The notes below the pieces were generated by a model that was given only the letters and a program-made list of their open reading frames with translations, searched no databases and had not been told where the DNA came from. The translations under genes and the position numbers were made by a program. Shown here one piece after another: positions 28,028 through 48,700 of a DNA stretch of 64,000 nt; within the stretch, counting starts at the first letter, position 1, and each line of letters starts with the position of its first letter. The stretch is from Oceanipulchritudo coccoides. GTDB taxonomy: Bacteria; Verrucomicrobiota; Verrucomicrobiia; Opitutales; Oceanipulchritudinaceae. The stretch is taken from positions 1,097,478-1,161,477 of the forward strand of contig NZ_JAAGNX010000002.1 in the NCBI RefSeq assembly GCF_010500615.1, given 5' to 3'.

Positions 28028-29893
28028 ATGTTGTCTATTTCTACTCCCGTCCGGTCAGGAATCCGGACATTTCTTCTGGGTCTCATCACTATTCACCTCC
28101 TCTCGATTGCCATTTGGGCGCAAAGTACCGATGAAGGGGGTTTCCTTTATCCCGTACAGGACCAACTGACGCTTCAGGAGTACATGCAGCGGGTGGTTGA
28201 TTTCAATGAATCCGTCCAGGGTCGCGTGCTGGGTTTTCAGGCGGCACGCAGCCAGCGCAAGGCGGAGATGGGACAGTTTGAGCCCGCTTTTGTCGCCTCC
28301 GGCGAATATGTCGACCGCCGGCAGCCAAATGACGATATCCAGCAGCGAACCTCAGGGTATGCAGAAGCTGCTGTTCAGGCGGCCTTCAACGGGGATCCCG
28401 CTCCTCCGCGGGACCTGTATCCCTATATTTTTGAGGAGCGCAATTGGCGTTATTCCTCAGCAATCGAAATGACCACGCCTCTCGGGACGCGGTTCAGGCT
28501 CGGTGCGACGGGCGGCGAGTTATTTAATAATGTCCCTTCCACGCAGAACAGCCAGCAGGAGGGATTTGTCACTTCACTCGGCCTGACGGTCGAACAGCCC
28601 CTCCTGAAAGGGATGGGATTTGCCGCGAATCTGGCCTCTCTGCGGTTGGCCGCCCGGCAGTCCGAAATTGCCTTTCAGGAGTATCGCCGTGAGCTGATGC
28701 AAGTCGTTGCACAGGCTGAGCTGGCATACTGGGAACTGTATTACGCGCAGGAAGAGCTTACCCTGAGCCAGGAATCAGTCGCCCTTGCCCAGACGTTGGT
28801 GGACGACAGCACAACCAGTTTTGAATCCGGACGCGGATCCCGCCTGGATGTCCTTGAGGCGGAAGCGGGACTGGCTCTGCGGAAATCCCGTGAACGGTCC
28901 TCTTTCCAGAGACGGGTCGAGGCGATGAATAAACTGGCTGCCTTCTTCGGGGATGTTCCCCGCTATCGACAGGTGGATTATACAGCGATTGATGAACCTG
29001 TCTCCCAGCCTGTTAAGACCTCTTTCAATAACGGTATCCAGACGGCCATGAAGATGAATCCGGATTTTCTGCGCGCCAAAATCCAGAAGGAGCAGGAAAA
29101 GATCCGGATGAAGTATGCCAAAAACCAGCGCCTTCCGGAGCTGAACCTGACGGCGAGTTATGCAGCCTCAGGCCATGGCAATGATTGGGACACATCCTAC
29201 ACGGATGTTGAAAACAACGATTTCCCGACTTGGACTGTTGGTCTAGTCTTGCGCTTGCCACTCTGGGGCGATGTGCGCGGCCGCAACGAGTTGCGGGCTT
29301 CCCGTTTGCGCATGATGCAGGCAGAGCGGGCGGAATCCAACCTGATGACTCAGTTGCGAGTCGGCCGGGACAGTTCCGAGCAACGCCTGAAGACCAATTT
29401 CATGACTGCCCGAAGCCTCGAATCGGTGGTTGAATTCCGGACCAATCTCTTGGAAACGCGGATGGAAAGCCGCGATGTCGGCCGCATGGATGCAAGAAGC
29501 GTTTTGGAGGCTGAGCAGGAGCTGTTTGTCGCCCGCCTGGAGCAACTGCAGAGCGAAGTTGAATGCCAGCGCGCCCTGCTTGAGCTGCAGCTGATTTCCG
29601 GGAGCCTTCTGCAGGTAAGGGGCATTGAAACCAGCCTTGAGGACCTTGAATACCAGACCCGCAGTTTGCAACAAGGGACCAAATTACCATCCGCCGGATT
29701 GGTTTACACCGCCCCGGAAATTGTCCGCCTGCCGGCCGAAGAGCCTGTTTCCTTTGAGGAAGACATGCCCCGCGCTCCGTGGATGGGCATAGAATGGCAG
29801 AACTTTGGAACCAACTCTCCCTCAACGATTCTCAATAATGAAGATACCCAGAAAAGAACTCCTCGCCGTTTTGACGGTAGCCATATCAATTGA
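28028..29893 (+). CDS. TolC-family outer-membrane protein, first gene of the giant-protein export locus
   Basis: A 621-residue exported protein: a signal peptide (about residues 10-36, 'LLSIAIWAQ'), then two homologous blocks of long helices typical of TolC ('RRELMQVVAQAELAYWELYYAQEEL', 'TLVDDSTTSFESGRGSRLDVLEAE', 'NLLETRMESRDVGRMDARSVLEAE'). It is about 150 residues longer than usual, partly from a 60-residue insertion near the N-terminus and partly from a proline-rich acidic tail after about residue 545 that is outside the TolC fold. The end of the gene overlaps the next gene by 56 bases. In context it would supply the outer-membrane duct for export of the giant LEPR-XLL protein. It shares little with the 432-residue TolC of the RND pump, so the two are separate systems. 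Confidence 0.88.
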   Translation: MLSISTPVRSGIRTFLLGLITIHLLSIAIWAQSTDEGGFLYPVQDQLTLQEYMQRVVDFNESVQGRVLGFQAARSQRKAEMGQFEPAFVASGEYVDRRQPNDDIQQRTSGYAEAAVQAAFNGDPAPPRDLYPYIFEERNWRYSSAIEMTTPLGTRFRLGATGGELFNNVPSTQNSQQEGFVTSLGLTVEQPLLKGMGFAANLASLRLAARQSEIAFQEYRRELMQVVAQAELAYWELYYAQEELTLSQESVALAQTLVDDSTTSFESGRGSRLDVLEAEAGLALRKSRERSSFQRRVEAMNKLAAFFGDVPRYRQVDYTAIDEPVSQPVKTSFNNGIQTAMKMNPDFLRAKIQKEQEKIRMKYAKNQRLPELNLTASYAASGHGNDWDTSYTDVENNDFPTWTVGLVLRLPLWGDVRGRNELRASRLRMMQAERAESNLMTQLRVGRDSSEQRLKTNFMTARSLESVVEFRTNLLETRMESRDVGRMDARSVLEAEQELFVARLEQLQSEVECQRALLELQLISGSLLQVRGIETSLEDLEYQTRSLQQGTKLPSAGLVYTAPEIVRLPAEEPVSFEEDMPRAPWMGIEWQNFGTNSPSTILNNEDTQKRTPRRFDGSHIN

Positions 29894-30575
29894 GGCGCAA
29901 GCCGCGGATGTGGTCCGCTGTCTCACTGAGCCAATTGCAGATGTGCAGATGTCCTCAATCGTTCCCGGAACGGTTGCGGCCATTCATTTCGGGGAAGGCA
30001 GCTTTGTCGACAAAGGGACTGTCGTCCTCGAAATGGAGGCACGATCCGAGCAACTCGACATCAAGCGCAGGAGTGTCCTTGTCGACAACCTGAAGGCGAC
30101 CCTCGAGCGTTCTGAGATGCTGCTTGAGAAGACCAGCTCCATTTCGATGGAAGAGGTGGATGAAACCCGCAGCGAATACCAGATTTCCAAGATCGAGCTC
30201 GAGCTGGCCCGGGAGGCCCTGGAGAAAAAACTCATCAAGGCCCCCATAACGGGAATTGTCACGGAGCTGCCCATTGAGGTGGGGGAGTTTTGTGAGCCAC
30301 CGCAAATTTTGCTACGCATAGTGGATACGCGCCAATTCAATTGTGTGGCGAACATTGATCCCGCCTTGGCGGCCAGTCTCTCAATGGATGATCCGGTCGC
30401 CTTTTCCTCGGAGAGGGGTTCCGAAGCGGACAAAGTAATGGGCAAGATTGTCTTTATTTCGCCCGTGGTTGATCCGGCCAGCGGCCTTTTGCGCATCAAG
30501 GCTCAATTCACTAACACCGACGGCGCGGTGCGGCCCGGTGAGGGTGGCACGCTTCAACTTTTTCCCACTGAATAG
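29838..30575 (+). CDS. Short HlyD-like periplasmic adaptor
   Basis: A 245-residue adaptor. I choose the ATG at 29838 because it gives a compact signal peptide ('MKIPRKELLAVLTVAISIEAQA'); a TTG 33 bases upstream would put charged and polar residues in front. The mature part has a first lipoyl half ('IVPGTVAAIHFGEGSFVDKG'), a short coiled-coil hairpin (about residues 65-125), the second lipoyl half ('IKAPITGIVTELPIEVGE') and a beta-barrel ('SPVVDPASGLLRIKAQF'). It is shorter than normal adaptors (350-480) because it lacks a membrane-proximal domain. The start is inside the preceding TolC gene (56-base overlap) and the stop is 2 bases from the next start, so it is tightly coupled to the export operon. 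Confidence 0.85.
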   Translation: MKIPRKELLAVLTVAISIEAQAADVVRCLTEPIADVQMSSIVPGTVAAIHFGEGSFVDKGTVVLEMEARSEQLDIKRRSVLVDNLKATLERSEMLLEKTSSISMEEVDETRSEYQISKIELELAREALEKKLIKAPITGIVTELPIEVGEFCEPPQILLRIVDTRQFNCVANIDPALAASLSMDDPVAFSSERGSEADKVMGKIVFISPVVDPASGLLRIKAQFTNTDGAVRPGEGGTLQLFPTE

Positions 30576-30577
30576 AC

Positions 30578-32440
30578 ATGGCCGGAGATTTTGAAAAAAC
30601 TGATTCCTTTCGGGACGCGCTTGAACAACTGGCCTATCTGCGCCGGTTTTCCGGTCCGCCCTCTGAATTCTGGCAGGCCTATCTCGATGCCTTGGTAACG
30701 GTCGGCAACGCTCGTTTTGGTCTGGTTGTGCGCAAGCGCAGCAGTGGAGACACCGACTGGCGCAAAGTCGTGGCATCCCCGGCCAATCTTGGCGGAGAGG
30801 GGTTGACCAAGTTCTTCGCGGGAGTGGAAGCCCTCTGTGAAAGCGCACTTGAAGACGGGGAGGCCAAGCAGGAGATTTCCTCGGAATCGGGCGAAGGGCA
30901 TACTGACATGGGATTGGCCATTCGGCTGGAGACCGGTCGTTCCAGTGAACAGTGGGTGGCCGTGTTTTTACTGGCCAATACCTCGGCAACGGAGGCCGAC
31001 GAGTCCATCAAGCGGCTCCTTCTGGCCAACTGCATGCCGGCGGATGTCCAGCATTACCAGACCTCCAATCGTGCCCCCGGAGCGGCTTCGCAGGCCGCCT
31101 CGGTGATTGACCTGGTTGTCATGATGGACGGCAAGACGCGCTTTCTTGAAATGGGCATGGCCTTTGTGAATGAGCTGGCCGGCCAGCACCATTGCGAACG
31201 GGTCAGCCTTGGCTGGGAACAGCGAGGCTACATCCGCCTGAAGGCGATCAGCCACTCGGACAAGTTCGAGAAGAAGATGCAGGCGGTGAGCGAACTGGAA
31301 AAGGTCATGGAAGAGGCCCACGACCAGGACGAGGAAATTTACTGGCCGCCCCTCGATGGCGAAACCCTGATCACCCGGGATCATGAAAAATTTTCCGAGA
31401 GCCAGGGGGTCAAGCACCTGTGCTCGATTCCGCTGAGAATTGACGGGGAGCCGGTCGCTGTGGTCACTCTCGAACGCGCGGGTGAGCCCTTTCTCGATGA
31501 GGAAATCCGTCTCCTGCGCATAACCGCCGATCTGGCCGCTCCTCGGCTGGCCGAATTGAAGCGCCGCGATCGCTGGTTCGGGGCGCGCTGGGCATCCGGA
31601 TGCCGCGAATTCCTCGGGAAGTTTCTGGGGCCTGAAAAGACCTGGACCAAGGTGCTCGCCATTGGTGGTGCCATTGCCTTGGCGGTCCTGTTTTTCGGTG
31701 GCATGAACTATCGCGTTGAGGCGCCGTTCTTATTGCGGACGGAAAATGTCTCTTTCCTTTCGGCCCCCTTTAACGGGTTTATCGCCGAGGTGGACGCCGA
31801 AGTGGGGGACGTCTTTGAAACGGGGCAGCGCCTGATGTCCCTGGACACGCGCGAGCTGCTTCTGGACGAGGCGGCCGCGGCGGCAGACCTGTCGCGTTTC
31901 CTGCGCGAGGAGGAAAAGGCCCGGGCCCGTAATGAACTTGCGGAAATGAGGATTTTTTCCGCCCAGGCTGAACAGGCCCGGGTGCAGTTGGAAACGGTGC
32001 GCTACAATCTTTCGCAAGCCGAAATCAAGAGCCCCTTCGATGCGTTTGTCATTGAGGGTGAGTTGAAAAAGCGCCTTGGAGCGCCGGTCCAGAAAGGGGA
32101 TATCCTCTTCAAGGTTGCCCGTTTGGATCGTCTCTATGTAGAGAGCAAGGTGGACGAGCGGGATATTCACGAGGTAAAGGAGGGCACGATGGTTGAGATC
32201 GCTTTTGCCAGCCAGCCCAAGCAGAAGTTCCCGGCCAAGGTGGTCTTGATTGAACCGGTGGCGACAACCCAGAACACGGAGAATTTCTTCATTGTGCGCG
32301 CACAACTCGAGGAGGTCCCGGAAGACTGGTGGCGCCCGGGAATGGGAGGCATTTCAAAAATCGAAGCCGGTCACCGGACCTTCTTCTGGATTATCTTCCA
32401 CCGTACAATCGATTTTCTCCGGATGTTTTTCTGGATATAG
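30578..32440 (+). CDS. GAF-like / HlyD fusion, inner-membrane adaptor
   Basis: A 620-residue fusion. Residues 1-350 are soluble and contain a GAF-like domain (about 180-330: 'KTRFLEMGMAFVNELAGQ', 'SIPLRIDGEPVAVVTLER') preceded by a second, degenerate alpha/beta region that may be another GAF-like fold. One membrane helix follows at about residues 363-382 ('VLAIGGAIALAVLFFGGMNY'). The periplasmic C-terminal part is an HlyD-type adaptor: lipoyl half ('APFNGFIAEVDAEVGDVFETG'), helical hairpin, second half ('IKSPFDAFVIEGEL') and beta-barrel ('VESKVDERDIHEVKEGTMVEI'). The topology puts the GAF-like part in the cytoplasm, where it could sense a ligand or contact the SecA-like ATPase, and the adaptor part in the periplasm. 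A hydrophobic C-terminal tail ('FFWIIFHRTIDFLRMFFWI') may touch the membrane. Next gene starts 3 bases later. Confidence 0.83.
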   Translation: MAGDFEKTDSFRDALEQLAYLRRFSGPPSEFWQAYLDALVTVGNARFGLVVRKRSSGDTDWRKVVASPANLGGEGLTKFFAGVEALCESALEDGEAKQEISSESGEGHTDMGLAIRLETGRSSEQWVAVFLLANTSATEADESIKRLLLANCMPADVQHYQTSNRAPGAASQAASVIDLVVMMDGKTRFLEMGMAFVNELAGQHHCERVSLGWEQRGYIRLKAISHSDKFEKKMQAVSELEKVMEEAHDQDEEIYWPPLDGETLITRDHEKFSESQGVKHLCSIPLRIDGEPVAVVTLERAGEPFLDEEIRLLRITADLAAPRLAELKRRDRWFGARWASGCREFLGKFLGPEKTWTKVLAIGGAIALAVLFFGGMNYRVEAPFLLRTENVSFLSAPFNGFIAEVDAEVGDVFETGQRLMSLDTRELLLDEAAAAADLSRFLREEEKARARNELAEMRIFSAQAEQARVQLETVRYNLSQAEIKSPFDAFVIEGELKKRLGAPVQKGDILFKVARLDRLYVESKVDERDIHEVKEGTMVEIAFASQPKQKFPAKVVLIEPVATTQNTENFFIVRAQLEEVPEDWWRPGMGGISKIEAGHRTFFWIIFHRTIDFLRMFFWI

Positions 32441-32443
32441 CAG

Positions 32444-34600
32444 ATGGCTGAAGTCCCCTCAACCTACAGTGAATCCTGGTTCAGGATTGCCCAGCAGCGG
32501 GTCAGCCTGCGCCCGCACATCCGCGTCCATCGCCAGCGCTTCCGTGGTGAACGCTGGTATGTCCTGCAGGATCCGTTCAACAACCAGTTCTTCCGGGTGC
32601 GCCCGGCGGCTTACGACTTTCTGGCCCGTTTGCGGCCGGACCGCACGGTTGACTCAGTCTGGCATGAATCCTTCGAGGCGGATCCGGAAAACGCTCCCGG
32701 GCAGGAGGAAGTCCTGCACCTGCTGGCCCAGCTCTATGGCGCCAACTTGTTGCATTCCGCGCTTGCCCCAGACAGTGCCCGGCTCTTTGACCGCTATACG
32801 AAGCGCAAACAGAAGGAACGGCAGGCCTTTTTCCGGAGCATCATGTTTGCCCGGATCCCGCTGATTGATCCGGACAATTTCCTGAAGCGGTCCCTTGCCA
32901 TTGGCCGGGCTGCCTTCAGCTGGTTCGGGCTGGCGGTGTGGTTACTCGTGGTCGGGCTCGCCCTCAAGATTGTCATCGATAATTTTTCCGACCTGAAGGA
33001 ACAAACGCAGGGCGTTCTTTCGCCGGACAACTTGTTCTGGCTCTATGCCGGACTGGTCATCATCAAGACCGTGCACGAATTCGGGCATGCCTTCGCCTGC
33101 CGGCGATTCGGGGGAGAAGTGCATACGATGGGGATCATGTTCCTGCTCTTTACTCCGATTCCCTACATGGACGCGACGGCTTCATGGTCCTTCCGGAGCC
33201 GCTGGCAACGCGCCCTCGTCGGCTCCGCGGGGATGATTGTCGAGATCTTTGTCGCTGGCCTTGCGGCCTTTGTTTGGGTCAATACTGCTCCGGGGACCAT
33301 TCATAGCCTGGCCTACAACATGATGTTCGTGGCCTCCGTCTCGACAGTGCTCTTCAATATCAATCCGCTGCTGCGCTTTGACGGTTACTACATCCTGTCG
33401 GATCTGCTGGATATCCCCAATCTGCACCAGCGATCAACAGGTCTCCTGAAGCACTTGATTGAGTATTACTGTTTTGGATACAAGAAGTCGGTCAACCCTG
33501 CCCGGAGCAACAAGGAGGCCTTCTGGCTGACCGTATTTGCGATCTGCAGCACGATTTACAAAGTCATCATTTTCACGACTATTCTCTTCTTCCTCGCCGA
33601 TCGTTTTCTCATTCTGGGGATCATCATGGCGATTGTCTGTGCCGTGGCATGGGTGTGCGTACCGATCTACAAGTTGATTGTCTACCTGGCGAGCAGTCCG
33701 AAACTCCAGCGGACCCGCCTCCGGGCAGTATCCTGCGTGGCCGGGTTCCTCCTTGTCCTCCTGATCATTCTCGACGTGATCCCGTTCCCGAACCACTTCC
33801 GTTCACCGGGAGTCCTGCAGGCCAGTACTTATTCCGTGGTTGTTCCGGAAACATCCGGGATTGTTGAGGAAGTGCTCAGCGCTGACGGAAGCCGGGTCTC
33901 TGCCGGGGATCCGCTCCTTCGCCTTGTGAATACCGAGCTGGCGCTGCAAATCCGGTCAGCGGAGGCCCAGCTTGAGCAGACACAGGCAATGCAACGCCGC
34001 GCTCTCCGTGAGGCAACTGCCGACTTGAAACCGCTGGAAAGCCGGGCTGAAGCAACCCGCAAACTGCTGCATCGTCTGGAGGAATCGCGTGAAGCGCTGG
34101 TGCTGCGGGCGGCCCACGACGGGACATGGGTTGCTCCAGGGATCAAGGATTCGGTTGGATCCTGGTTGGAACGCGGCACACCCGTCGGTCAGGTCATTGA
34201 TGAATCGGAGTTTTATTTTTCCGCGATTGTCTCGCAGAACGAAGCCTCCCGGCTCTTTTCCAAGGAAATCCTTGGTTCGGACGTGAAACTCTTCGGCCAG
34301 GCTGGCGAGCTCCTGGCGGTAGAATCGCGCAAAGTCATTCCGGTTGAAAAGGAGCGTCTCCCTTCCGCGGCCATTGGCTGGGCGGGCGGTGGCGACGTCG
34401 CGGTCGACATGTCCGAGCAGAGCGGGACCCGCACGGCCGAACCGTTCTTCGAGGTCCGTGCCAACATCGGTGAAGCCGGTGAGAGCCAGCTTTTGCATGG
34501 AAGGGGAGGGCGCATCCGTTTTGATCTTCCGGCGGAACCTCTTCTTCGGCAATGGATGCGCAAGCTCCGGCAGCTCCTGCAGAACCGCTATGGGATATGA
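32444..34600 (+). CDS. PqqD-like / M50 site-2-protease-like / HlyD fusion protein
   Basis: A 718-residue polytopic membrane protein with three parts. Residues 20-115 resemble a PqqD-like winged-helix (peptide-recognition) domain ('YVLQDPFNNQFFRVRPAAYDFL' region). Residues 150-460 form an M50-like membrane peptidase: HEFGH at 211-215 is the zinc-binding HExxH, and D313 in 'NINPLLRFDGYY' matches the second conserved M50 site. Residues 465-700 are a periplasmic HlyD-like adaptor ('VVPETSGIVEEVLSADGSRVSAGD', helical hairpin, 'LRAAHDGTWVAPGIKD'). All expected zinc ligands are present, so it may be an active protease. In the locus it could recognise, cleave or gate the giant substrate; this is an inference. 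Its stop overlaps the preferred SecA-like start by 4 bases. Confidence 0.87.
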   Translation: MAEVPSTYSESWFRIAQQRVSLRPHIRVHRQRFRGERWYVLQDPFNNQFFRVRPAAYDFLARLRPDRTVDSVWHESFEADPENAPGQEEVLHLLAQLYGANLLHSALAPDSARLFDRYTKRKQKERQAFFRSIMFARIPLIDPDNFLKRSLAIGRAAFSWFGLAVWLLVVGLALKIVIDNFSDLKEQTQGVLSPDNLFWLYAGLVIIKTVHEFGHAFACRRFGGEVHTMGIMFLLFTPIPYMDATASWSFRSRWQRALVGSAGMIVEIFVAGLAAFVWVNTAPGTIHSLAYNMMFVASVSTVLFNINPLLRFDGYYILSDLLDIPNLHQRSTGLLKHLIEYYCFGYKKSVNPARSNKEAFWLTVFAICSTIYKVIIFTTILFFLADRFLILGIIMAIVCAVAWVCVPIYKLIVYLASSPKLQRTRLRAVSCVAGFLLVLLIILDVIPFPNHFRSPGVLQASTYSVVVPETSGIVEEVLSADGSRVSAGDPLLRLVNTELALQIRSAEAQLEQTQAMQRRALREATADLKPLESRAEATRKLLHRLEESREALVLRAAHDGTWVAPGIKDSVGSWLERGTPVGQVIDESEFYFSAIVSQNEASRLFSKEILGSDVKLFGQAGELLAVESRKVIPVEKERLPSAAIGWAGGGDVAVDMSEQSGTRTAEPFFEVRANIGEAGESQLLHGRGGRIRFDLPAEPLLRQWMRKLRQLLQNRYGI

Positions 34601-36582
34601 AGACGATTGCTCGAGAGTATCGTCCCTGCCAGATTCCGCGGGTTAAGGATCCGCCGACCGGACTTGATGGCCTTGTTGACTCCACAATCGGGGGATGGAA
34701 GCGCCGGCCGGGTATTCTTGCTGGATTGAAACGGGAGGCTAAGGCCATTGATGCCCTCGAGGAAGATTGGAAATTTCTTTCAGAGGCCGCCCTGAAACGC
34801 CATTTGCTGGAGTTCAGGGAACGGTTCCGTCGGGCCGACAAGGATGCCGAGGAGTGTTTGCCCGATGCACTGGCCGCTATTCGCGAGGCGGCTGACCGGG
34901 TCACCGGAATGCGCCCGTTTGTGGTGCAGCTGATGGGCGCCCTTGCGCTCCACCGTGGCTATCTGGCCGAAATGGCAACAGGGGAGGGCAAGACCCTCAC
35001 GGCCGCTTTGGCAGCAGTCCTTACCGGATGGACCGGCAAACCCTGCCATATCATCACGGTCAATGATTACCTCGCCAAGCGCGATTCGGAGTGGTTTCAG
35101 CCGCTTTATGAATTCTGCGGGGTTTCCGTCGGGGCTGTCACCAGCATCATGCACGCGGAAGACCGGACGCTCGGGTATTCCAAGGATGTCACCTACACGA
35201 CAAGCAAGGAGGTCGTGGCTGACTTCCTCCGCGACCGGTTGCGCCTCGGCGATCATCAGCATCCGACACAGCGCCTCCTGCAGCGCCATCTGCATCCGTA
35301 CCACGGCGAGGACCATGTCGTCATGCGTGGCCTCCATACGGCCATTGTCGATGAGGCGGACAGTGTCCTCATTGACGAAGCGGTGACGCCGCTGATCATT
35401 TCATCACCGACCAACAACAACCAGCTCCATCAGGTCTACAAGGAGGTCTGGAAGATTACCAACCAGCTCAAGAAAGATGAGCATTATCGTGTGGATTTGC
35501 GCTACAAGGAGGCGGTCCTCCTTCCGCGCGGCAAGCAGGTTGTCGAGTCGCACTTGAGTATGCTCCCGGAACGGTGGAGGGGCGCTTCCCGGCCGGTTGA
35601 ACTCGTCGAGCAGGCCCTCAACGCGCGGGAGTTTTTCAGGCGGGGTAAACAGTATGTCGTCCAGAAGAACAAGGTCGTCATTGTTGATGAATTCAGCGGC
35701 CGCATGATGGCCAATCGCAAGTGGCGGCACGGTCTCCATCAGGCCATTGAAGCCAAGGAAGGGCTCCCGCTTTCCCCCATCGACCAGACCCTCGCCCGCC
35801 TCAGTTTCCAGCGCTATTATCGCCTCTATACCAAGCTCTCCGGCATGACCGGGACGGCACATGAGGCTGCCCGGGAGGTCTGGCATACCTACCATTTGCC
35901 GGTTGTCCGGATCCCCACTAACCGGCCTGTGATTCGCCAGGAACTGCCCCACCGGATCTATCCGTCCATCGAGCTTAAAATGGATGCCATTGTTGCCGAT
36001 GTGGAGGCCAACCACCTGCTGGGCCGGCCTGTTCTCGTCGGCACGCGCAACGTCGCGACAAGCCAGATTCTGGCCAAACGGTTACACTCAGAGGGCTTTA
36101 AAATCGAACTTCTGAACGCCCTGAATGACCGCCAGGAGGCCTCCATTATTGCCCGCGCTGGAAGAAAAGGAGCCATTACAATCGCCACCAATATGGCTGG
36201 CCGGGGCACCGATATTAAACTCGGAGAGGGTGTTGCCGAGCTCGGCGGGCTCCATGTCATTGCCTCCGAACGGCACGAGGCAAGGCGTATTGACCGGCAG
36301 CTTTTCGGCCGCTCTGGCCGTCAGGGCGATCCCGGAACGGCCGTCGCCTTCATCAGTTGCGAGGACGAATTACTCCTGCGTTTTGCCCCCAAGTGGCTGC
36401 TTGGTCTCTTTACCAAATGCCTCAAAAATCGCCTCCCCGGCGGACGCATGATCGGCCTTCTGACCAACAATTTTGTCCAGTGGAAGGCCCAGAAAATTGC
36501 CCTCTACTCAAGGAAATCGGTCCTGAAAATGGATACTTGGCTCGATGAGGCCATCTCCTTTTCCGGTAAATCGCTCATCTGA
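34597..36582 (+). CDS. SecA-like ATPase lacking the helical C-terminal domains
   Basis: A 661-residue SecA-like motor from the ATG at 34597, which overlaps the upstream stop (ATGA); an in-frame ATG at 34552 would add 15 residues. It keeps NBD1 with Walker A 'MATGEGKT' (K132) and Walker B 'DEADS' (from D252, followed by 'IDEAVTPLIIS'). It also keeps the preprotein cross-linking domain up to 'VIVDEFSGRMM', and NBD2 with 'ATNMAGRGTDIKL' and the arginine finger region 'RRIDRQLFGRSGRQGDPG'. It ends about 80 residues later, within the first helix of the scaffold domain. The two-helix finger, helical wing and zinc-binding C-terminal tail of the 830-900-residue housekeeping SecA are absent. It is therefore an accessory SecA-type ATPase, the only energy-coupling protein in the locus, and a likely motor for the giant protein encoded 136 bases downstream. 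Confidence 0.9.
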   Translation: MKTIAREYRPCQIPRVKDPPTGLDGLVDSTIGGWKRRPGILAGLKREAKAIDALEEDWKFLSEAALKRHLLEFRERFRRADKDAEECLPDALAAIREAADRVTGMRPFVVQLMGALALHRGYLAEMATGEGKTLTAALAAVLTGWTGKPCHIITVNDYLAKRDSEWFQPLYEFCGVSVGAVTSIMHAEDRTLGYSKDVTYTTSKEVVADFLRDRLRLGDHQHPTQRLLQRHLHPYHGEDHVVMRGLHTAIVDEADSVLIDEAVTPLIISSPTNNNQLHQVYKEVWKITNQLKKDEHYRVDLRYKEAVLLPRGKQVVESHLSMLPERWRGASRPVELVEQALNAREFFRRGKQYVVQKNKVVIVDEFSGRMMANRKWRHGLHQAIEAKEGLPLSPIDQTLARLSFQRYYRLYTKLSGMTGTAHEAAREVWHTYHLPVVRIPTNRPVIRQELPHRIYPSIELKMDAIVADVEANHLLGRPVLVGTRNVATSQILAKRLHSEGFKIELLNALNDRQEASIIARAGRKGAITIATNMAGRGTDIKLGEGVAELGGLHVIASERHEARRIDRQLFGRSGRQGDPGTAVAFISCEDELLLRFAPKWLLGLFTKCLKNRLPGGRMIGLLTNNFVQWKAQKIALYSRKSVLKMDTWLDEAISFSGKSLI

Positions 36583-36718: not shown

Positions 36719-39700
36719 GTGGGAAGAATTCGTGCACCGGCACCGCTCAATGCCTTGCCGGCTGCCCTTAGTAATTCCTTGAACAGCCGTCATAAAGTCC
36801 AGAAGAACTTCGAACTAGAGAGTCTAGAGCCACGGCTTTTGCTTTCCGGGGACGGCTTAATGGGTGCCGCAGCGGCGGACATGCTGGATAATCCAGAGGA
36901 TACAATCGATGCCATAGTGGTCCAGGATTACGCTGAATTGTCAGCTCTTGAGGACTCCGGAAATGACCTCTTCGAGATCGAAGACGAAGCCATTTCAGTC
37001 TTGGATTCAGGAGCGGACAGCACGGAAACAGATGCGGATCCGGCCTCTGATTCCCCTGCCGCGGCAACTGATTCTGGCTCTGGAGAAGTCCTTTCAAGTG
37101 ATGAAATGACCGCCCTTGAGTCGGTTGAACATGCCTTGGATGGCACTGCCGTGACCTCCCTGGAGGCCACCAGCGTGAGCGGCCAAGCAAACACTCTTTC
37201 TGAAGAACTTGTCACCACCTTGAATGCGGCCAACGGCCCGCCATCAGGTGCTGCCCCGCTTGAACAGTGGGCTTCAGCCGAATTTACAAATTCCGGATCC
37301 GATACAACAGGCGGTTCCGGCTTTTTGGTGTCCACTTTGGAGGCCTCAAATCAGCTCCTTGTTGAGGCCTCAAACGACCCTCTCTCCTCCGCCTTCATCC
37401 CGAAATTGACCCTCGAGCAGCTCGATGTAGTTTTTCAGGAAGCCCTCCGCCTCTGGTCAGCCACACCCCTTTCGGTCGAGCAACTTGACCTGCTCAATTC
37501 CCTGACATTCCGGATTGAAGATCTGGGCGACGGTGTCCTTGGGGAAGCTGAGGGAAATTCGATTGTCCTGGATGACGATGCAGCCGGGCATGGCTGGTTC
37601 GTCGATCTGACACCGGATGGCAATTCCGAGTTTGGAGATGCGACAGATCGTCTCAACCAAGTCGACCTCCTGACAGTGGTTCTTCATGAGACCGGACATG
37701 TCCTTGGGTTCGACCACGATTCCCCATTGGCTGTCATGACCGATACGCTTTCGACAGGTGAAAGAATCACACTGGGGGATTCTCCTCAGGATGCCCTTGA
37801 CAGCAATTTGACAACTCCCGTCAGCGGGAACCAGGTGACCGGGACTTCTCCAAACGTCGTACTTGACCTGACCCCTGTAGCTGACGATGCGACAACTGTA
37901 ATTGTTACAGTTGACGATCTGGGTGCTATTTCAGTTTCCGGTTCAGCTCTGGATGATGGCGCGTCACCGATTTCTGATGTGATTGAAATCCGCGGCAACG
38001 CGAACGGCTCGCTGGAAATTGTCGGACCGGACGTGTCCGTGGTCTGGACACTCGATGGAAGCAATTCGGGCAGCCTGACCATTCCGGGATCTCCCGATAT
38101 TGTGATCACCTTCAGCAACGTTGATGTGATCACCGGCGGATCTGATTCGGATGAGTTCCGACTGGATGCTGCATATGCTTCGCAGATCGAACTGAACGGT
38201 GAATCCGGAAACGACACCCTGATCATTGAAAACGGAAGTGCTGCGGACGTCATTTTCAACGCCGGGCCCGGTGAAGCAGATACCGTAGTGAACCAAGGTG
38301 GAACGAGTGGGGCACTCATCCTTTCTGAAGTCGAGACTCTGATTGACCGGCCATTGCTCTTCATTCCCGGATTTGGCGGAAGCTTTGCCGATACATCCCT
38401 TTCAGAGGATGCCGGAATTGCCGGTGGCACCATTATCGAAGAGTGGCTGCGGAATCGAGGGCTTGCCCCCGACCGCCTGATCCTCGAGCCCATCACCGAA
38501 GGCTACTCGGATATGGTCCAGACATTTTCCAACATTGGATATGTCAACGGGACCAACACCGGAGCGATCGGAACACTTTTTGCCGTGCTTTGGGACTGGC
38601 GCGTACCGGTTGCCCAGCCTGACAGCACCCCGGATGGATTTCTTGAAACGGTCACTTCCGGATCCCTTGCCTTGGATGGCACCTATGAAACCGGGTTGGA
38701 TTACCTTGCTTACTGGATGAATGAAGCGGTCACCGCCTGGACCACCCTGACCGGTGCCGCTCCTGATTCGGTCGACCTCGTGACACACAGTACCGGCGGC
38801 CTGATTGCCCGCAGCTATATCCAAAGCGCCGCTTACGGGGTATCGGGATTGCTTCCGGTCAACATGCTGATTCAAACCGGCGTGCCGAATCAAGGAACCG
38901 GGGCCCCCTTCCTGATGCTGAAGAATGATTTCAGCCTGAAGTCAGCCAGCCGCTTCCTTGGCAAGACTCTGAATGACGCGTGGCTTCTCTGGGACAATGG
39001 CAACACGCCTATCTATAATCCGGATGGCTCACCTTTCGCTGCTGCCGACGAGGAGGAATTTATCCTCAATTATGTTTCGACCCTTCAGGACCTGCTCGCG
39101 ATTTATCCGTTCCTGGACGATGTGGAGAACGATGAGCGGACACTGCGTGCCCTCACGGATTCCGATACGCCTTTCAATATTCTTCTTTCTGACCTGAACG
39201 CCTACGACCTCGATGCGTTTGTGGCACGTGGGGTTTTACAAGTCGTCGAAGATAGCCTGCCGGCTGAATTGGCCGATGCGGATAGTGGCAACGGTATTGT
39301 CACTTATGCAGAGCTGCTCGCACTCTATGACACTTCTGATCCGAATGGCACCCTCGATGTTGATGACGATGTTCTTCCGGCGGAACTGGCCATTGCCGAT
39401 GACGGTGACGGCCTCGGTGGTCCGGCTGACGGGATTGTCAGCTACGACGAGCTTCTGCGCATGTACGATCGCCAGACTTACGTTGTCTACAGCGACGCTG
39501 TTACCACAGAGGATCTCGCGATCCAGAACACCGGCATCCAGTTTTCCCTCGGTAGCGCTAATGAAATCCTCCCCATCACGGAGCTCTTCATCGGAAGCCT
39601 CCCGGGTGAAACTGACGTCTGGTACAATCTGGAACCTTATCCCACGGGCGGTGACGGAACTGTTTCCACCTTGTCCTCCAGTGAAGGCTTTGCCGAAACG

Positions 39701-42700
39701 CGCCTTGTTGAAGTATCCGCCATTGCAGGTGCAGATCTAGCGCACCTTGACATCACCCACAATGCGGATTCCCAGCGGAAGATTGTTGAGCTCCTCGGGG
39801 TGACTGATCAATCCGTTGCCGTTATATCCACGAACCTCCTGCTCACAAGTTCCGCCGACCAAGGGAAACGCCTGTATGATCTCGGTTTGATCGATCCAGT
39901 GGAAATTGCCCAACGAGCCTATGACGGAGCACTCGCCCAGATCCAATCTCTCCAGGACTTCGTTTCCAATAACGAGCTGCTCAAGAAGAACCTTCCCATT
40001 GTTAACAAGAACCTGAATCAACTGCTCAATGATGCCACCGACGGTCTGGGCTTTGATGCCCTCTTTACCCAGTTGACCGATTCAGTAGGTAGCTTCACAG
40101 GATACGCTGATCTTGCCACTCTTGAGGCAGGGATTGAATCAACACTCGGCCTTCTCAGTTCTGAATTCTCGATTGTCGATAACGTTTCCACAGCCGGTCA
40201 GCTTCAGCTTCAATTTAATATTACCGAGTCGAGCACCTACTCCACGACAGCCAACTTAGGCGACTCTGGCGGTCCGCTGAGTGGTTCAATCGATCTGCTT
40301 GCTGATCTGGATTTTGCCCTGGCTTTCAATATCAACCTCGATCTCGGAGCCTTGCTTGATTCAACAGGGGAGGGCGATGGAGCCGACGGAATTGAAATTG
40401 AACTCGTAACCCTCGATGTGGGCGCTTCGTTCAGTTCCTCGGATATTGATGTTGCGCTTGGTTTGGATGGCGTTGGCGGTCTAGCCATTGAGAATGGTAC
40501 AGCCAGTTTCGACGCAGGTCTTTCTGTCAGCTTTGCCGATACAGACGGCACCCCGGACACACTCAGCGCATTTCAATTCCTCTCGCCAGACAGTTTTGCC
40601 GGGTTGCAGGACCTGATCAGCTTCCAAGTCACTGACGCAGCTCTTGATTTCACCCTGCCAGCAACTGTCGCCGTTGCAAACCCCGGGTTTGACCTGGCAG
40701 GAGCCGGTACTCTGGCACTCGCCTCAAGCGATGTGTTCAGCGGCGATACCCCGGATATTTCCCTCGGCCTGACGGTCACCAATTTCAGCGTTGGGGATTT
40801 CTTCACCTCCAGCGGTTCCCTCACTTTCGAGACTGGTGCGGAAGGTGATCTTCAGATTACCGGAAGTGTCAGCGGCAACGGCACAAATGGCGCACTCGTT
40901 ACAGCCGGTCCGGTAACCGTCAGCGGCGCCGCCGAAGTCGCCTTTGTTCGCCGTACTGTGGATATCGATACAACCGGTGACGGCGAAGCGGATCTGATCG
41001 GTGCGCAGCTTGATGAAGTGGCCCTTTCCCTGACAAGCGGCAGCGTGGACGTGGCCGGCGTGGCTGATCTTGAACTTTCCGGCGAGCTCACTCTCGCATC
41101 CGTCAAGGCTGCAGGTGAGAGCATTTCCCTCTACACTGCCCTGAAGATGGGCGCTGTAACAGTTGGTATCCAGACCAGCTCAACCGATTTCGGCCTGGAC
41201 GGTACCTTGACCATCAGCGGGTTGGATTACAATGCCTCCAGTGGTGATGAGCGCCTCGACTGGACAAGCGCCTTTGACTTTGATGAGGACGGCACGCCGG
41301 ACCTTCTTAATGCGGCAACCCTCCTCCCGACACCGGGTGATCTCCCCATCGACTTTGATTCATCCCTTGAACTGCGGGTCAGCGGAAGCGTTTCGGGAAC
41401 ACCGATTATTTCGGCAGGTCCCGTGACCTTGTCCGGCACAGCCGAGCTGGCCCTTACGCGGGGTATTGTAAATGTCGATACAGACGGCAGCGGTACACCG
41501 GATCTGCTCGGGGCGCGTCTCGATACGCTTGCCTTTTTTGTGCCGTCCAGTTCATCCGTTAATTTAGATGTCAGCTCCATAGCAGAGCTTGATGTTTCCG
41601 GTTCCTTCGCCCTTGCGACAATTACCGCTGATGGTGAGACCACCGCCCGGTACTCCGCCCTCCGCATGGGCGACGTGGTTGTCAGCACCGTGGGCATGAG
41701 CAGCGATTTCGGCTTTGATGCCACCGTCTCGATCGACAGTCTTGATTACAATGCGACCACAGTCGCGGATCGCCTTGACTGGACAACAGCGTTTGACCTT
41801 GACGAAGATGGTACACCGGAAGTCCTGAACCCCGGCGCTGATCTTCCGACGGCAACCGACCTTTCCATCGATTTTGAGTCCAGTCTCCAACTTCGCCTGA
41901 GCGGCGGCCTGAACGATTCGGGCTCGGGTCTCTTGCTTACCGCAGGTCCGGTGACCCTCTCAGGTCAAGCTGACTTTGCGCTGACCCGCCGTAGTGTCGA
42001 TGTCGATACAGACGGTGACGGAACAGTTGATGCCTTGGGCGCACAACTCGACTCGATGGCGCTTTCCCTGACAAGCGTCGCAATTGATATCAGCGGCCTG
42101 TTTAACCTGACCGCTTCCGGCGAGCTGGCCCTGGCCAAAGTGGAAACAAGCTCAACAGTCTATACTGCCTTCAAGATGGGCAATGTCACTCTCGGTGGCA
42201 CCTCCGCAAGCGCGGCTGACTTTGGTTTGGATGGCACTCTCTCGATTGACGGCCTTGATTACAATACCTCCAGCGGCTCCGAATTGCTTGATTGGACAAG
42301 TGCGTTTGACCTGGATGGAGACGACGAAGCAGATGTCCTCGATCCCGGACAAGACCTGCCTACCGCCAAGGAACTGGCCATTGATTTTGATTCGACCCTG
42401 CAACTCCGCCTGAGCGGTAGCCTGAATGATGGTTCAACGGGACCCCTCCTGACAGCCGGTCCGGTGACCCTTTCCGGTTCTGCCGACTTCACGCTGACGC
42501 GCCAGACTGTCGATGCCGATACAACCGGTGATGGAACAGTCGATGCGCTGGGTGCACAACTCGACTCAATGGCCCTTTCGATGACCGGTGTGAACTTGTC
42601 GATCTCCGGCTTGTTCGACCTGACCGTATCCGGCGAGCTGGCTCTTGCCAAGTTGTCCCTGGGCGGCGGTTCATCCACCGTCTACACAGGCCTTCGGATG

Positions 42701-45700
42701 GGCAACGTGACAATCACCGGTTCCACCGCCTCTTCCGATGACTTCGGTTTGAATGGTACTCTTTCGCTCACGGGTCTTGATTACAATGCCTCGACTAGTG
42801 GTGACCGCCTGAACTGGGCCAGCGCATTCGACTTTGACGGCGATGACGAAGCAGATGTTCTCGATCCCGGACAGGATCTTCCCACTGCAAAGGACCTGGC
42901 GATTGACTTTGATTCGACCTTGCAGCTACGCGTGAGCGGCAGCCTTAATGATGCGCCTGAAGACTCCGGCATCTTCCTGACGGCCGGCCCGGTCAGCCTT
43001 GATGGAAGTGCTGAATTTACCCTGACGCGTCAGTTTGTCGATGTGGATACAGACGGTGATGGAACAGCTGATTTGCTCGGCTACCAGCTCGACTCCGTGG
43101 CCATCTTCATTCCTTCCGAATCGCCGGTAACCCTTATCGTCACGGGCGTGGCTGAATTATCCGTTTCCGGAAGCCTCGCCTTTGCTCGTGTCTCTGCTCC
43201 GGGTGCCGGAACACCGCGCTATACGGCTTTGAAGATGGGCGATGTGGTTGTGGAGTCTTCGACTGCCTCTTCTGGCGACTTTGGCCTCAGCGGTACTTTG
43301 ACGATTGCCGGACTTGATTACAATTCAGCCCTGAACGAACCCCGTCTAAACTGGGCCAACGCATTCGACTTTGATGGCGATGCTGAACCTGATGTTCTCG
43401 ATCCCGGTGCTGACCTGCCAACTGCCCAGGACCTGTCGATTGACTTTGATTCAAGCCTGCAACTTCGCCTCAGTGGAAGTATTGCCGGTGACACCGAAAA
43501 TAACGACCTGCTTCTAACCGCCGGACCTGTGACCCTCGCCGGTTCTGCTGAGTTTAGTTTGACCCGCCAGACGGTGGATGTGGACACAACCGGTGACGGC
43601 AATGCTGATGTCACCGGTGCGCAGCTGGACTCAATTGCCCTTTCAGTGACGGATGCTGAGCTGGATGTCAGCGGAGTTGCCAATCTGACCGTTTCCGGTG
43701 AGCTCGCTCTCGCTAAACTCACCCTCGATGGCCAAACCTCAGCGGCATACACCGCCTTGAAGATGGGCGATGTCACAGTCAGTGCCTCCACGGGCGCGGC
43801 TGCCGACTTTGGCTTGGCCGGCACCTTGACCATCGCCGGCTTGGATTACAACAGCGCTGCCACAGGTGATCGCCTGAACTGGGCCGGCGCCTTTGACTTT
43901 GATGGCGACAACGAAGCCGATGTCCTCAATCCCGGACAAGACCTGCCAACACCAACCGATCTGGCAATTGACTTTGATTCCACCCTGCAGCTTCGCCTCA
44001 GCGGTAGCATCACAGGGGATGAAAACAATAATGATATTCTCATTACAGCCGGTCCGGTAACGCTTGCCGGTTCCGCGGAGTTTGCCCTGACCCGTCAGAC
44101 CGTTGATGTGGATACGACTGGTGACGGAACGCCTGATGCCTTGGGTGCCCAACTCGACTCAATTGCTCTTTCAGTGACCAATGCCGAACTCGTTGCCGGC
44201 AGCCTTGCCACTGTGACCCTCTCCGGTGAGCTCGCCCTAGCCAAGCTCACTCTGGCCACGCCTTCCACTGTCGTTTACACTGCCTTCAAGATGGGGAACG
44301 TCACGCTGAGCAATGCGGATGGCGCCACAGCCAGCGACTTCGGCCTGAGTGGAACTCTTACCATTAACAGCCTTGATTACAACGGCGGTTCCGTAGCTGA
44401 CCAGCGCCTGGACTGGAACAGCGCATTTGACTTTGACGGTGACAACGAAGCCGATGTGCTGAACCCCGGCCTTGACCTGCCCACGCCAATTGACCTGGCC
44501 ATCGACTTTGAAGCAGGCCTGGAATTGCGCCTCAGCGGCAGCATCGCAGGGGATGCATCGAATAATGACATTCTCATTACAGCCGGCCCGGTCACACTTG
44601 CCGGAACAGCTGAATTTGCCCTGACCCGCCAGACCATCAGTGTGGATACGACTGGTGATGGTGCAGCCAATGAGGCCGATGCCCAGCTCGACTCCATCGC
44701 ACTTTCCATTACCGGCGGAAAACTCGTAGTGGGAACTGTTGCGACTCTTGATATTTCCGGCGACCTTGCCATTGGCAAAGCGACCCTCTCCGACACAACT
44801 ACCGTCTACACCGCCCTCAAGATGGGTGATGTATCGGTGAGTATCGACACCGCCCCATCCGCCAACTTCGGCCTGACCGGCGTCCTGACCATTGACAGCC
44901 TCGATTACAACGGTGGTTCTGTTGCCGACGAACGCCTTGACTGGGCAAATGCCTTTGACTTTGACGGCGACGACATCGCGGACGAGCTCGCCTTGAATCC
45001 CGGTGCGAATCTGCCCACCCCGAAGGACCTTTCTCTTGACTTTAATTCATCCCTGCAACTCCGCTTGAGTGGCAGCTTGAACAAGACCACGGACCCAACG
45101 GTGATCTTCCTCACCGCCGGCCCAGTGACCCTCGCCGGACGCGCTGACTTTACCCTGACCCGCCAGACGGTTTCCGTCGATACCACCGCTGATGGTACTT
45201 TCAATGAGACCGATGCGCAGCTTGATGTCATTGCCCTCTCCTTGACTGATGCCGAATTGGTTGCCGGTAGCCTTGCGACCCTGACCGTCTCCGGTGAACT
45301 GGCTCTTGCCAAGGTGACCCTTGCCAACACGACCACCGTTTACACCGCCTTCAAGATGGGCAATGTCTCGGTCACCACTGAAACGGCTTCCACATCCTCC
45401 TTTGGATTGGCCGGAACGATGAACATCGACCGCCTTGATTATAATGGTGGATCGGTCGCTGATGCGCGCCTTGATTGGACAAGTGCCATCGACTTGGACG
45501 GTGATAATACCGCCGACCAGCTGGATCCCGGACAAGACCTCGCAACACCGGTTGATCTCGCCATTGATTTTACAGACGGACTGCAAGTTCGCTTGAGCGG
45601 ATCTGTGACTGGCGATGCCGGCAATAATGACATCCTGTTAACCGCCGGTCCTGTTACACTCGCCGGGACTGTTGAATTCGCCCTGACGCGCCAGACGGTT

Positions 45701-48700
45701 GACTTTGATTCCACCGGTGACGGCACGGCCAACGAAAGTAATGCCCAGCTCGATACAATCGCGATTTCAATTTCTGAAGGATCCCTTGCAACTCTTGATG
45801 TGAGCGGCGTGGCAACCCTCGTTGTCTCCGGTCAGCTTGCCATTGCGCGCGTGACCCTGAACAGCCAGACAACTGCTCAATACACCGCGGTGAAGATGGG
45901 TGACGTTGTCGTGAGTTCCTCAATTGCTTCCGCAAGTGACTTCGGCCTTGAGGGAACGCTCACTATCAACGGTCTCGATTACAACAGCACAGCCAGCGGG
46001 GATCGCCTCGACTGGAGCAACGCCTTTGATTTGGATGGAGACACAATTCCCGATCTCCTTAACCCCGGCGCTGATCTTCCAACCCCGGCCGAGCTCGCCA
46101 TCGATTTTGAATCCAGCCTGGAACTGCGCCTCAGCGGCAGCATCTCGGGTTCACCATTGCTCACTGCCGGAACCATTACCCTCGCCGGTACAGCGGAATT
46201 TGCACTGACCCGCCAGACCGTTGATGTTGATACCGATGACGATGGATCTGTTGATGCAACCAACGCCCAGTTGGATCTCATTGCCCTTTCGATTCTTGAT
46301 CTTTCCCCGGTTACCCTGACCGTTGGCAGCCTTACCACCTTGAGCGTCTCCGGTCAATTGGCCCTCGCCCGGGTAACCTTGGACGGGCAGACCGCAGCCG
46401 AGTACACCGCCCTGAAAATGGGCGATGTGACCGTTAACGCTTCTTCCGCCGCGGCAGATGATTTTGGTTTGAGCGGCACCCTGACGATCAATGGCCTCAA
46501 CTACAACAGCGCCTTGACTGGCAACCGCCTCGAGTGGACGAGTGCTTTTGATCTGGATAATGACGATTCGCCGGATCTCCTTGATCCGGGTGCGGACCTG
46601 CCAACTCCGGTTGACCTGACAATTGATTTTAACTCCAGCCTGCAGTTGCTCGTGAGCGGCAGCGTGACCGGTGATCCCTTAAACAACAATATTCTCCTGA
46701 CAGCCGGTCCGGTGACTGTTGCCGGGACAGCTGAGTTTGCCATGACGCGCCAGACTGCCGATGTCGACACAACAGGTGATGGCAACGCGGATGCAAATTT
46801 TGCCCAACTAGATTCCATCGCCCTGTCTGTCACAGATGCGGTCCTTGATGTCAGCGGAATCGCAACCCTTACCGTTTCAGGCGAACTGGCCCTTGCACGA
46901 GTGACTCTTAGTGGTCAACTCGATGCCAAGTATACCGCCTTCAAGATGGGCAATGTCACGGTTAGCAACTCAAATGCTTCCGCCAGCACCTTTGGCCTGG
47001 AAGGCACGCTGACCATTGCTGGTCTCGACTACAATGGCGGATTGGTTGCCGGCGAGCGCCTTGATTGGAACAGTGCCTTTGATTTTGATGGTGATGCCAA
47101 CCCGGATATTTTGGATCCCGGAGCAGACCTGCCGACTCCTGTTGATCTGGCTATCGATTTCGAATCCAGCCTTCAGCTTCGCGTAAGCGGTAGCGTGACC
47201 GGCGCTGGCGTCGATGAGATCTTTCTCACAGCTGGTCCGGTGACTCTTGGCGGTACTGCAGAATTTGCCCTGACCCGCCAGACCGTTAAAGTGGACACGA
47301 CGGGTGACGGCACGATGGACCAAACGAACGCACAGCTCGATTCGGTCGCCCTTTCTGTGACGGATGTTGAATTGGAAGTAACCGGCCTGGCCACGCTTAC
47401 GGTCTCCGGTGACCTTGCCTTGGCACGCGTCACTTTGGATGGTTCGACTACGGCGGACTACACGGCCTTCAAGATGGGTGATGTGACGGTGACAGCTTCC
47501 ACTGCTTCAGCCTCCGACTTCGGGCTCTCCGGTTCATTGAAGATCACCGGTCTGGATTACAACCAGGCAGAGAGCGGCAACCGCCTTAATTGGACGAAGG
47601 CATTCGACTTCGACGGCGATACGGTTAACGACATTCTGGATCCCGGGCAGGACCTGCCAACCCCACAGGATCTGGCAATTGATTTTGATTCAAACCTGCA
47701 GCTACGGGTAAGCGGTAGCCTGAATGCGGATCCCGATCCTGAACAGATATTCCTTGTTGCCGGTCCGGTCAGTCTCGACGGTCGTGCTGAATTCACCATG
47801 ACACGCCAGACGGTCTCGGTGGATACAAATGGTGACGGTACGGCGAATGAAACCGGCGCACAACTTGACTCCCTGGCCCTCGTCGTTTCCGACGTCGAGC
47901 TCATCGTCACGAATGTCGCCTCATTGCAAGTTTCCGGCGAGCTCGCCCTGGCAAAGTTGACGCTGGCCGACATGACAACCGTTTACACGGCCTTCAAGAT
48001 GGGCAATGTATCCGTCACGACAAATTTCACTTCCGGAGATTTTGGCCTCACTGGAAACCTTTCCATCGACAGCCTGAATTACAATGCCTCGACAGTGGCT
48101 GATCGCCTCGACTGGACAAAGGCCTTCGAGTTTACTGGCGATTCGAACCCGGACATCCTCAATCCTGGTGCAGACCTGCCAACACCGGTTGACCTTTCGA
48201 TCGATTTTGAATCTGGCCTTGAACTCCAGCTCAGCGGCAGCGTAACCGGTGCCGGAGTTGATGAGATCTTCCTCGCGGTTGGTCCGGTCACTCTTGGCGG
48301 AACAGCCGAGTTCACCCTGACTCGCCAGACCATTGACGTGGATGAGAGCGGAGACGGGACATCAATTCTCACTGACGCCCAGCTCGACTCAATCGCACTT
48401 TCCGTGAGTGATGTGACTCTGGACGTCGAGGGTGTCGCAAGCCTGACCGTCTCGGGCCAGTTTGCCTACGCCACGGTCAAGGCAACCAGTGCAGATCCTG
48501 CCCGCTACACCGCTCTTCTTATCAAGGACCTTTCCGTGGATGCCTCGGTAGCCGATGGTGCTCTTGATTTTGGAACAGTCGGCCCAATCATCATCAGCGA
48601 GCTGAAATACAACGGCGCTGCGGATACCTTCAGCCGCCTCGATTGGAATACGGCCTTTGATTTTGACGGTGACACCGCATACGACGACCTCCTGAATCCG

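Follow-up and report, generated by a model that had tools for sequence, protein, structure and literature searches.

The window, a stretch of 64,000 nucleotides from Oceanipulchritudo coccoides, hosts a compact run of genes on the + strand. The third gene of the run (30578..32440, +) was identified by ORF calling and Pfam as encoding an inner-membrane adaptor of 620 aa in which GAF and HlyD domains are combined. It is preceded by genes for a TolC-type outer membrane channel (28028..29893, +; Pfam OEP 5.5e-38) and a short second HlyD-type adaptor (29838..30575, +; Pfam HlyD_3 1.8e-17), and is followed by genes for an M50 (site-2) protease fused to HlyD (32444..34600, +), recognised by Pfam, and for a short SecA-like ATPase of 676 aa (34552..36582, +), assigned by Pfam and by BLAST against canonical SecA. 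A giant frame, whose product is the probable cargo, starts after this export operon (36719..64000, +); followed beyond the window along the contig, it reaches position 79096 of the window frame and spans 14,125 aa. A TamB-like gene and then an Omp85/POTRA gene are found just upstream of the operon (18844-24437), as is a multihaem cytochrome c / cytochrome b561 protein (24531-26630).

The HlyD-type identity assigned to the adaptor in the preliminary description is confirmed by Pfam, as HlyD_3 (3.2e-19, 70.1 bits) and HlyD_D23 (5.2e-19, 68.8 bits) both score above their cut-offs and both a barrel-sandwich/lipoyl part and a HlyD domain are present. The periplasmic HlyD/barrel-sandwich part covers residues 390-588 (31745..32341, +). 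PDB relatives found with a profile of the whole adaptor all lie on the HlyD/lipoyl side (MacA, CusB, EmrA, biotinyl/lipoyl domains). A single membrane helix, residues 359-377 (31652..31708, +), is the sole peak in a hydropathy scan, which detected no hydrophobic N-terminal segment; residues 1 to about 355 are therefore most simply cytoplasmic, in agreement with the cytoplasmic part of about 350 residues claimed earlier. The same simple scan gives a peak at the corresponding position for 41 of 45 family proteins; in the other four it stays below threshold, and an extra upstream peak occurs in 11 of the 45. The C-terminal tail, residues 600-620 (32375..32437, +), is conserved, and fits an HRxxDFLRxxxWW-like pattern in most of the 17 aligned close members, a set in which relatives are 32-45% identical to the window adaptor. 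A partial relative from an 'uncultured Opitutales bacterium' (L004) is 71% identical over 266 residues; its resemblance ends there, and the sequence may be a chimera. Modelling of the full-length adaptor from the single sequence gave a pLDDT of 37.9. One scan of viral contigs revealed no adaptor relatives.

The cytoplasmic part is probably made of two GAF-like units, a divergent one at residues 10-164 (GAF1) and a clear one at residues 172-332 (GAF2; 31091..31573, +). A GAF-like domain ahead of the membrane helix had been predicted, and was recovered in GAF2: the Pfam GAF model PF01590 matches residues 251-321 at 3e-8, with 34.7 bits against a cut-off of 22.4. The domain was found at E<=0.01 in 17/17 close members and in 28 of the 29 rows of a wider set; the window protein is counted in both sets, and the overall figure is 44 of 45 distinct proteins, which argues that the match is not due to chance. 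The 29-row alignment leaves out the Rhizobium johnstonii adaptor, which crosses the record start, and the adaptor of genome G426 (L151), and seven divergent proteins (L050-L053, L154-L156) have been tallied separately. The G426 adaptor is distributed over two frames, with pieces matching at E 4.5e-133 and 4.0e-83.

The mean fraction of the majority residue over the 45 proteins is 0.50 for GAF2, close to the 0.54 of the periplasmic part, against 0.30 for GAF1; GAF2 is constrained almost like the adaptor part. Eight GAF2 positions (S225, M244, E246, Q250, P257, H269, P285, R300) are kept in at least 95% of the proteins, S225 and E246 in all 45. This signature is common to proteins of the window's phylum and to alphaproteobacterial proteins, the latter being 22-27% identical overall to the window protein. 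Its polar residues plausibly mark a specific site, and, given their conservation, GAF2 is likely either to bind a ligand or to offer a specific site to a partner. GAF2 was also searched for in 37 relatives. Five of seven matches fell in frames of 615-633 aa and the other two, in frames of 200 and 322 aa, came from draft genomes, so that no clear stand-alone GAF2 emerged.

GAF1 (30605..31069, +) is probable only at the level of the fold. Residues 10-164 gave no Pfam GAF match at E<=1 in any of 15 members, so the profile comparison with GAF families suggested earlier succeeded for residues 172-332 and failed for the preceding unit. An AlphaFold (AF2) model obtained from two sequences, the window protein and L004 (pLDDT 56.8, pTM 0.55), has GAF-like secondary structure. 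GAF-type folds head the structural matches of this model. With Foldseek, the five hits at E<=0.001 comprise a LuxR ligand-binding domain, a GAF domain, 3e0y, Cph2 and a bacteriophytochrome; VIA aligned it with the fRMsr 3ksf (Z 9.7, rmsd 3.7, 126 aligned residues) and the GAF domain 1f5m (Z 9.6, rmsd 4.0, 138 aligned residues). PAS/LOV, Rag and roadblock folds are found lower down in the lists, and a best VIA Z of 7 to 8 is typical even with no true match; the GAF fold of this unit is for these reasons graded as probable. The idea that GAF1 and GAF2 arose by duplication was not supported by comparison of their profiles (hhalign probability 1.5).

The conserved site of GAF2 could be taken for that of a ligand-gated switch, in which a small cytoplasmic molecule bound by GAF2 opens or closes export. 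GAF domains commonly bind small ligands, and the near-invariant polar residues S225, E246, Q250 and H269 would be needless in a pure scaffold. The best solved relatives retrieved by a GAF2-only profile are four PDB chains from a sensor protein, histidine kinases and the bilin-binding, phytochrome-like Cph2, and H269 is aligned with a His beside a Cys in the three matches shown. In phytochrome and cyanobacteriochrome GAF domains the chromophore cysteine lies beside a conserved His. However, these PDB matches are weak (E 0.0023-0.0067), a Cys precedes H269 in none of the 45 aligned proteins, and a protein interface would explain the conservation equally well; a gate of this kind is accordingly considered rather unlikely. 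The missing cysteine led us to discard a photoreceptor function of GAF2 in the form of covalent bilin binding. A cytoplasmic switch, as put forward in the preliminary description, is in any case not a new idea, as a regulatory role for such proteins had been proposed by Kamneva et al. (PMC4452313).

At the other extreme, the GAF part may be a mere dimerisation or assembly scaffold, devoid of sensing and of specific recognition. GAF domains often dimerise; conservation of GAF1 is poor, and two relatives (L046, L047) lack it, with frames that keep GAF2 and are too short for a full GAF1. But GAF2 is conserved nearly as well as the periplasmic part, with some polar residues invariant, and the scaffold is judged improbable, more so than the gate. 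We favour for GAF2 the role of a coupling element, described below. The cytoplasmic parts of such adaptors are reported in a review (PMC8277102) as essential in substrate recognition and complex assembly.

The M50 proteins feature the HExxH pattern in all of the 46 related loci scanned, plasmids included. In the window protein residues 21-406 match the daptide M50 protease model NF041824 with 173.3 bits, below the cut-off of 300. Some M50 partners carry a PqqD-like N-terminal domain, which was above cut-off in 4 of 8 proteins scanned (L158, L160, L161, L167, all alphaproteobacterial) and weak in three others (L168, L035, L040); the window M50 protein gave no Pfam match to it. Three preset SecA ATPase patterns were all found in 34 of 42 short SecA proteins, and one of the eight misses is a frame cut by the end of the stretch. 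BLAST aligns the window's short SecA with the canonical SecA of the same genome (1027-aa frame) in two pieces, which extend up to canonical residue 697 and leave the C-terminal third unmatched. This third is the one that works with SecYEG.

The adaptor resembles HlyD of type I secretion in being a periplasmic adaptor anchored in the inner membrane, with a cytoplasmic N-terminal part and a TolC partner. Type I HlyD proteins have a short cytoplasmic part and an ABC transporter as motor; the adaptor described here has in contrast about 355 cytoplasmic residues with a GAF domain, and a SecA-like ATPase. The accessory SecA2 of Gram-positive bacteria, likewise a second SecA with a dedicated cargo, is the other obvious likeness, but the partners here are HlyD and TolC proteins. 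The short SecA scores below the cut-offs of the NCBIfam SecA2 models (527.5 against 930 for TIGR03714; TIGR04397, TIGR04221 and NF012136 also below). That the protein is an ordinary efflux or type I secretion adaptor, merely adjoining a giant gene, would be consistent with the likeness of its periplasmic part to MacA, CusB and EmrA and with the TolC and HlyD partners, reminiscent of type I systems. Yet Pfam found no ABC, RND or MFS transporter domain in any of the five operon proteins, and therefore no ABC transporter partner of type I secretion, and the M50 and SecA neighbours recur, together with the LEPR-XLL association described below, across distant genomes. This explanation is regarded as very improbable.

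The fusion of GAF and HlyD has already been published, and is not new. Kamneva, Poudel and Ward 2015 (PMC4452313) reported, in the sections devoted to the module, that secondary SecA genes have genes for GAF+HlyD proteins as neighbours, and suggested a regulatory and sensory role for these proteins. Their module consists of a second SecA_DEAD protein, an M50-HlyD protein, a GAF+HlyD/biotin_lipoyl protein, a further HlyD and sometimes OEP/TolC, and was found in Planctomycetes, Verrucomicrobia, Proteobacteria and others; one of the loci named is from Methylobacterium extorquens AM1. The window operon belongs to it, since the short second SecA, the M50-HlyD and the GAF-HlyD proteins are neighbours here as well. 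No cargo is named in the module sections of PMC4452313, and the words 'LEPR', 'PqqD' and 'adhesin' do not occur in its text. The legend to Figure 3 of PMC4452313 allows neighbours longer than 1,000 aa, and long genes may have been seen.

Among relatives, the conserved set is formed by the GAF-HlyD, M50-HlyD and short SecA proteins, usually accompanied by the short HlyD and TolC. An M50-HlyD gene is present in the fetched stretch in 33/33 loci of the window's phylum, the window itself excluded (L034-L049, L137-L153), and a short SecA in 30 of the same 33. The three genomes with no short SecA at the locus (G455, G270, G197) each have a second short SecA elsewhere, in frames of 674-729 aa. The seven divergent relatives have an M50 neighbour in six cases and a clear Pfam GAF in one, and several are devoid of the short SecA.

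Similar loci are found on alphaproteobacterial plasmids. A search with the M50 protein as query yielded 65 records with an M50 match, of which the best 13 (H1-H13) were considered; lower rows, including Azospirillum, Escherichia and Citrobacter, were left out. The M50 protein is thus present in the set by construction, and the 13 loci are not independent, as three Rhizobium, two Sinorhizobium/Ensifer and two Rhodobacterales loci look like close copies in coordinates and motifs. Adaptor and M50 genes occur together in all of these best 13, and SecA adjoins them in 12. The exception is a Thalassospira plasmid (L168), where a LEPR giant, DUF3467, adaptor, M50, HlyD and TolC genes have no SecA beside them. 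The linkage of the fusion to the short SecA, the constancy of which was to be surveyed according to the preliminary description, holds for 30/33 phylum loci and 12 of the best 13 plasmid loci, and breaks down in the Thalassospira plasmid and in several divergent relatives.

In each of the best 13 plasmid loci the exporter genes are preceded, on the same strand, by a frame longer than 2,000 aa, and a (L/M/Y/I)EPRxLL motif stands at the beginning of the giant gene. The giant is one continuous frame in 11 loci. In a Rhizobium beringeri plasmid it is broken into two overlapping frames, and in Rhodobacteraceae M382 the frame with the LEPR motif (3,472 aa) stops short of the frame of 4,238 aa that adjoins the adaptor (L169, L179 and L172 for these two hosts); in close relatives of the two the giant is a single frame. 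Five N-termini of plasmid giants (L164, L165, L166, L168, L181) passed the cut-off of the LEPR-XLL model NF012209. A sixth, that of the Alisedimentitalea giant (L163), gave no match to this model, because the annotated start falls after the LEPR motif, and the tag hence lies outside the annotated protein. In six annotated plasmid records (L158, L160, L161, L162, L168, L174) a small DUF3467 gene is interposed between the giant and the exporter genes, and in two a short HlyD gene is also found there.

The giant frame of the window is itself a LEPR-XLL protein. NF012209 matches residues 31-53 (36809..36877, +), near the N-terminus, with 29.9 bits against a cut-off of 17. The 14,125 residues include no cysteine, are strongly acidic (K+R-D-E = -1591) and contain 26 RTX-like motifs, all in the second half. 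A metalloprotease-like HETGH is found at residue 323. Four LEPR-XLL frames, 5,519-14,125 aa long, are present in the window's genome alongside a single full-length adaptor, and among the genomes sampled LEPR-XLL frames reach 20,466 aa.

LEPR-XLL matches were detected in 16 of 141 genomes of the class and in 24 of 387 genomes of the phylum, and in none of 14 control genomes. With an adaptor cut set afterwards at a gap in the E-values, 22 phylum genomes have both adaptor and LEPR-XLL, 2 the adaptor only, 2 LEPR-XLL only and 361 neither (Fisher 1.8e-31, uncorrected for relatedness); the corresponding figures for the class are 13, 3, 3 and 122 (3.7e-13, likewise uncorrected). At the cuts searched (1e-20, 1e-10) the counts, in the same order, are 23/28/1/335 and 14/15/2/110 (6.7e-22 and 1.0e-9), many adaptor-like proteins found at looser cuts being devoid of LEPR. 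The two samples overlap; in their union 33 genomes have the adaptor, 32 LEPR-XLL and 28 both. In these 28 of 33 adaptor genomes the LEPR match is on the adaptor's contig in 17 cases, and within 12 kb in 12; in 16 of the 33 no LEPR match is found on that contig.

Five of the 33 adaptor genomes (G096, G121, G084, G375, G197) have no scored LEPR match. Two of these, G121 and G084, have frames of 1,700 aa or more with LEPRYLL / LEPRCLL, missed by the model, in the 20-kb stretch that holds the adaptor. Conversely, a divergent HlyD+M50 pair is present in the LEPR-only genomes G016 and G301, and G301 has a second SecA_DEAD match about 330 bases from the LEPR match. LEPR without adaptor was also observed in G034 (28.9 bits, 3,346-aa frame), a genome 85% complete, and, as a weak match, in G113 (22.2 bits, 636-aa frame). 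The concordance of adaptor and LEPR-XLL also holds within genera. Both are found in G137 and G373 and neither in G075 of genus g12, both in G356 and neither in G064 and G117 of g10, both in G033 and neither in G051 and G103 of g7.

Since the machine is found almost exactly where LEPR-XLL giants are, these are probably its cargo. On the basis of gene content and co-occurrence, the protein encoded at 30578-32440 is rather more probably than otherwise the cytoplasm-facing adaptor of a trans-envelope exporter powered by SecA and dedicated to LEPR-XLL giants. The M50-HlyD and GAF-HlyD proteins would form a platform in the inner membrane, through which the short SecA would push the giant chain, and the chain would continue outward through the HlyD/TolC conduit. 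The LEPR-XLL segment would serve as targeting signal. PqqD-like domains bind leader peptides in RiPP pathways, which makes the M50 partner a candidate reader of the LEPR segment, perhaps by means of the PqqD-like N-terminal domain present in some of these proteins. The cytoplasmic GAF part, above all GAF2, would be the coupling element docking SecA, cargo or partner subunits, and GAF2 might set, via a ligand or a partner contact, when motor and conduit engage.

A broader proposal, advanced with greater reserve and leaning slightly to the doubtful side, is that LEPR-XLL acts as export signal for secretion machines that form a class of their own. In these a SecA-like motor free of SecYEG would work together with a GAF-controlled adaptor and with an intramembrane-protease platform bearing a PqqD-like leader reader, and chains between several thousand and 20,000 residues long would travel from the cytoplasm to the surface through TolC. 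The link between module and giants would pair two orphans, giving the secondary-SecA module its cargo and the LEPR-XLL tag its exporter, and opens the role of the GAF adaptor to direct tests. What is added here to the module sections of PMC4452313 is the link to LEPR-XLL, the GAF2 signature and the probable layout with two GAF units. Among the open-licence PMC literature matches listed, no paper was found that ties the module to LEPR-XLL, or that deals with how LEPR-XLL giants leave the cell. Giant LEPR-XLL proteins do appear in two papers, one of which mentions such a protein in Vibrio, while the other names one in Limnohabitans.
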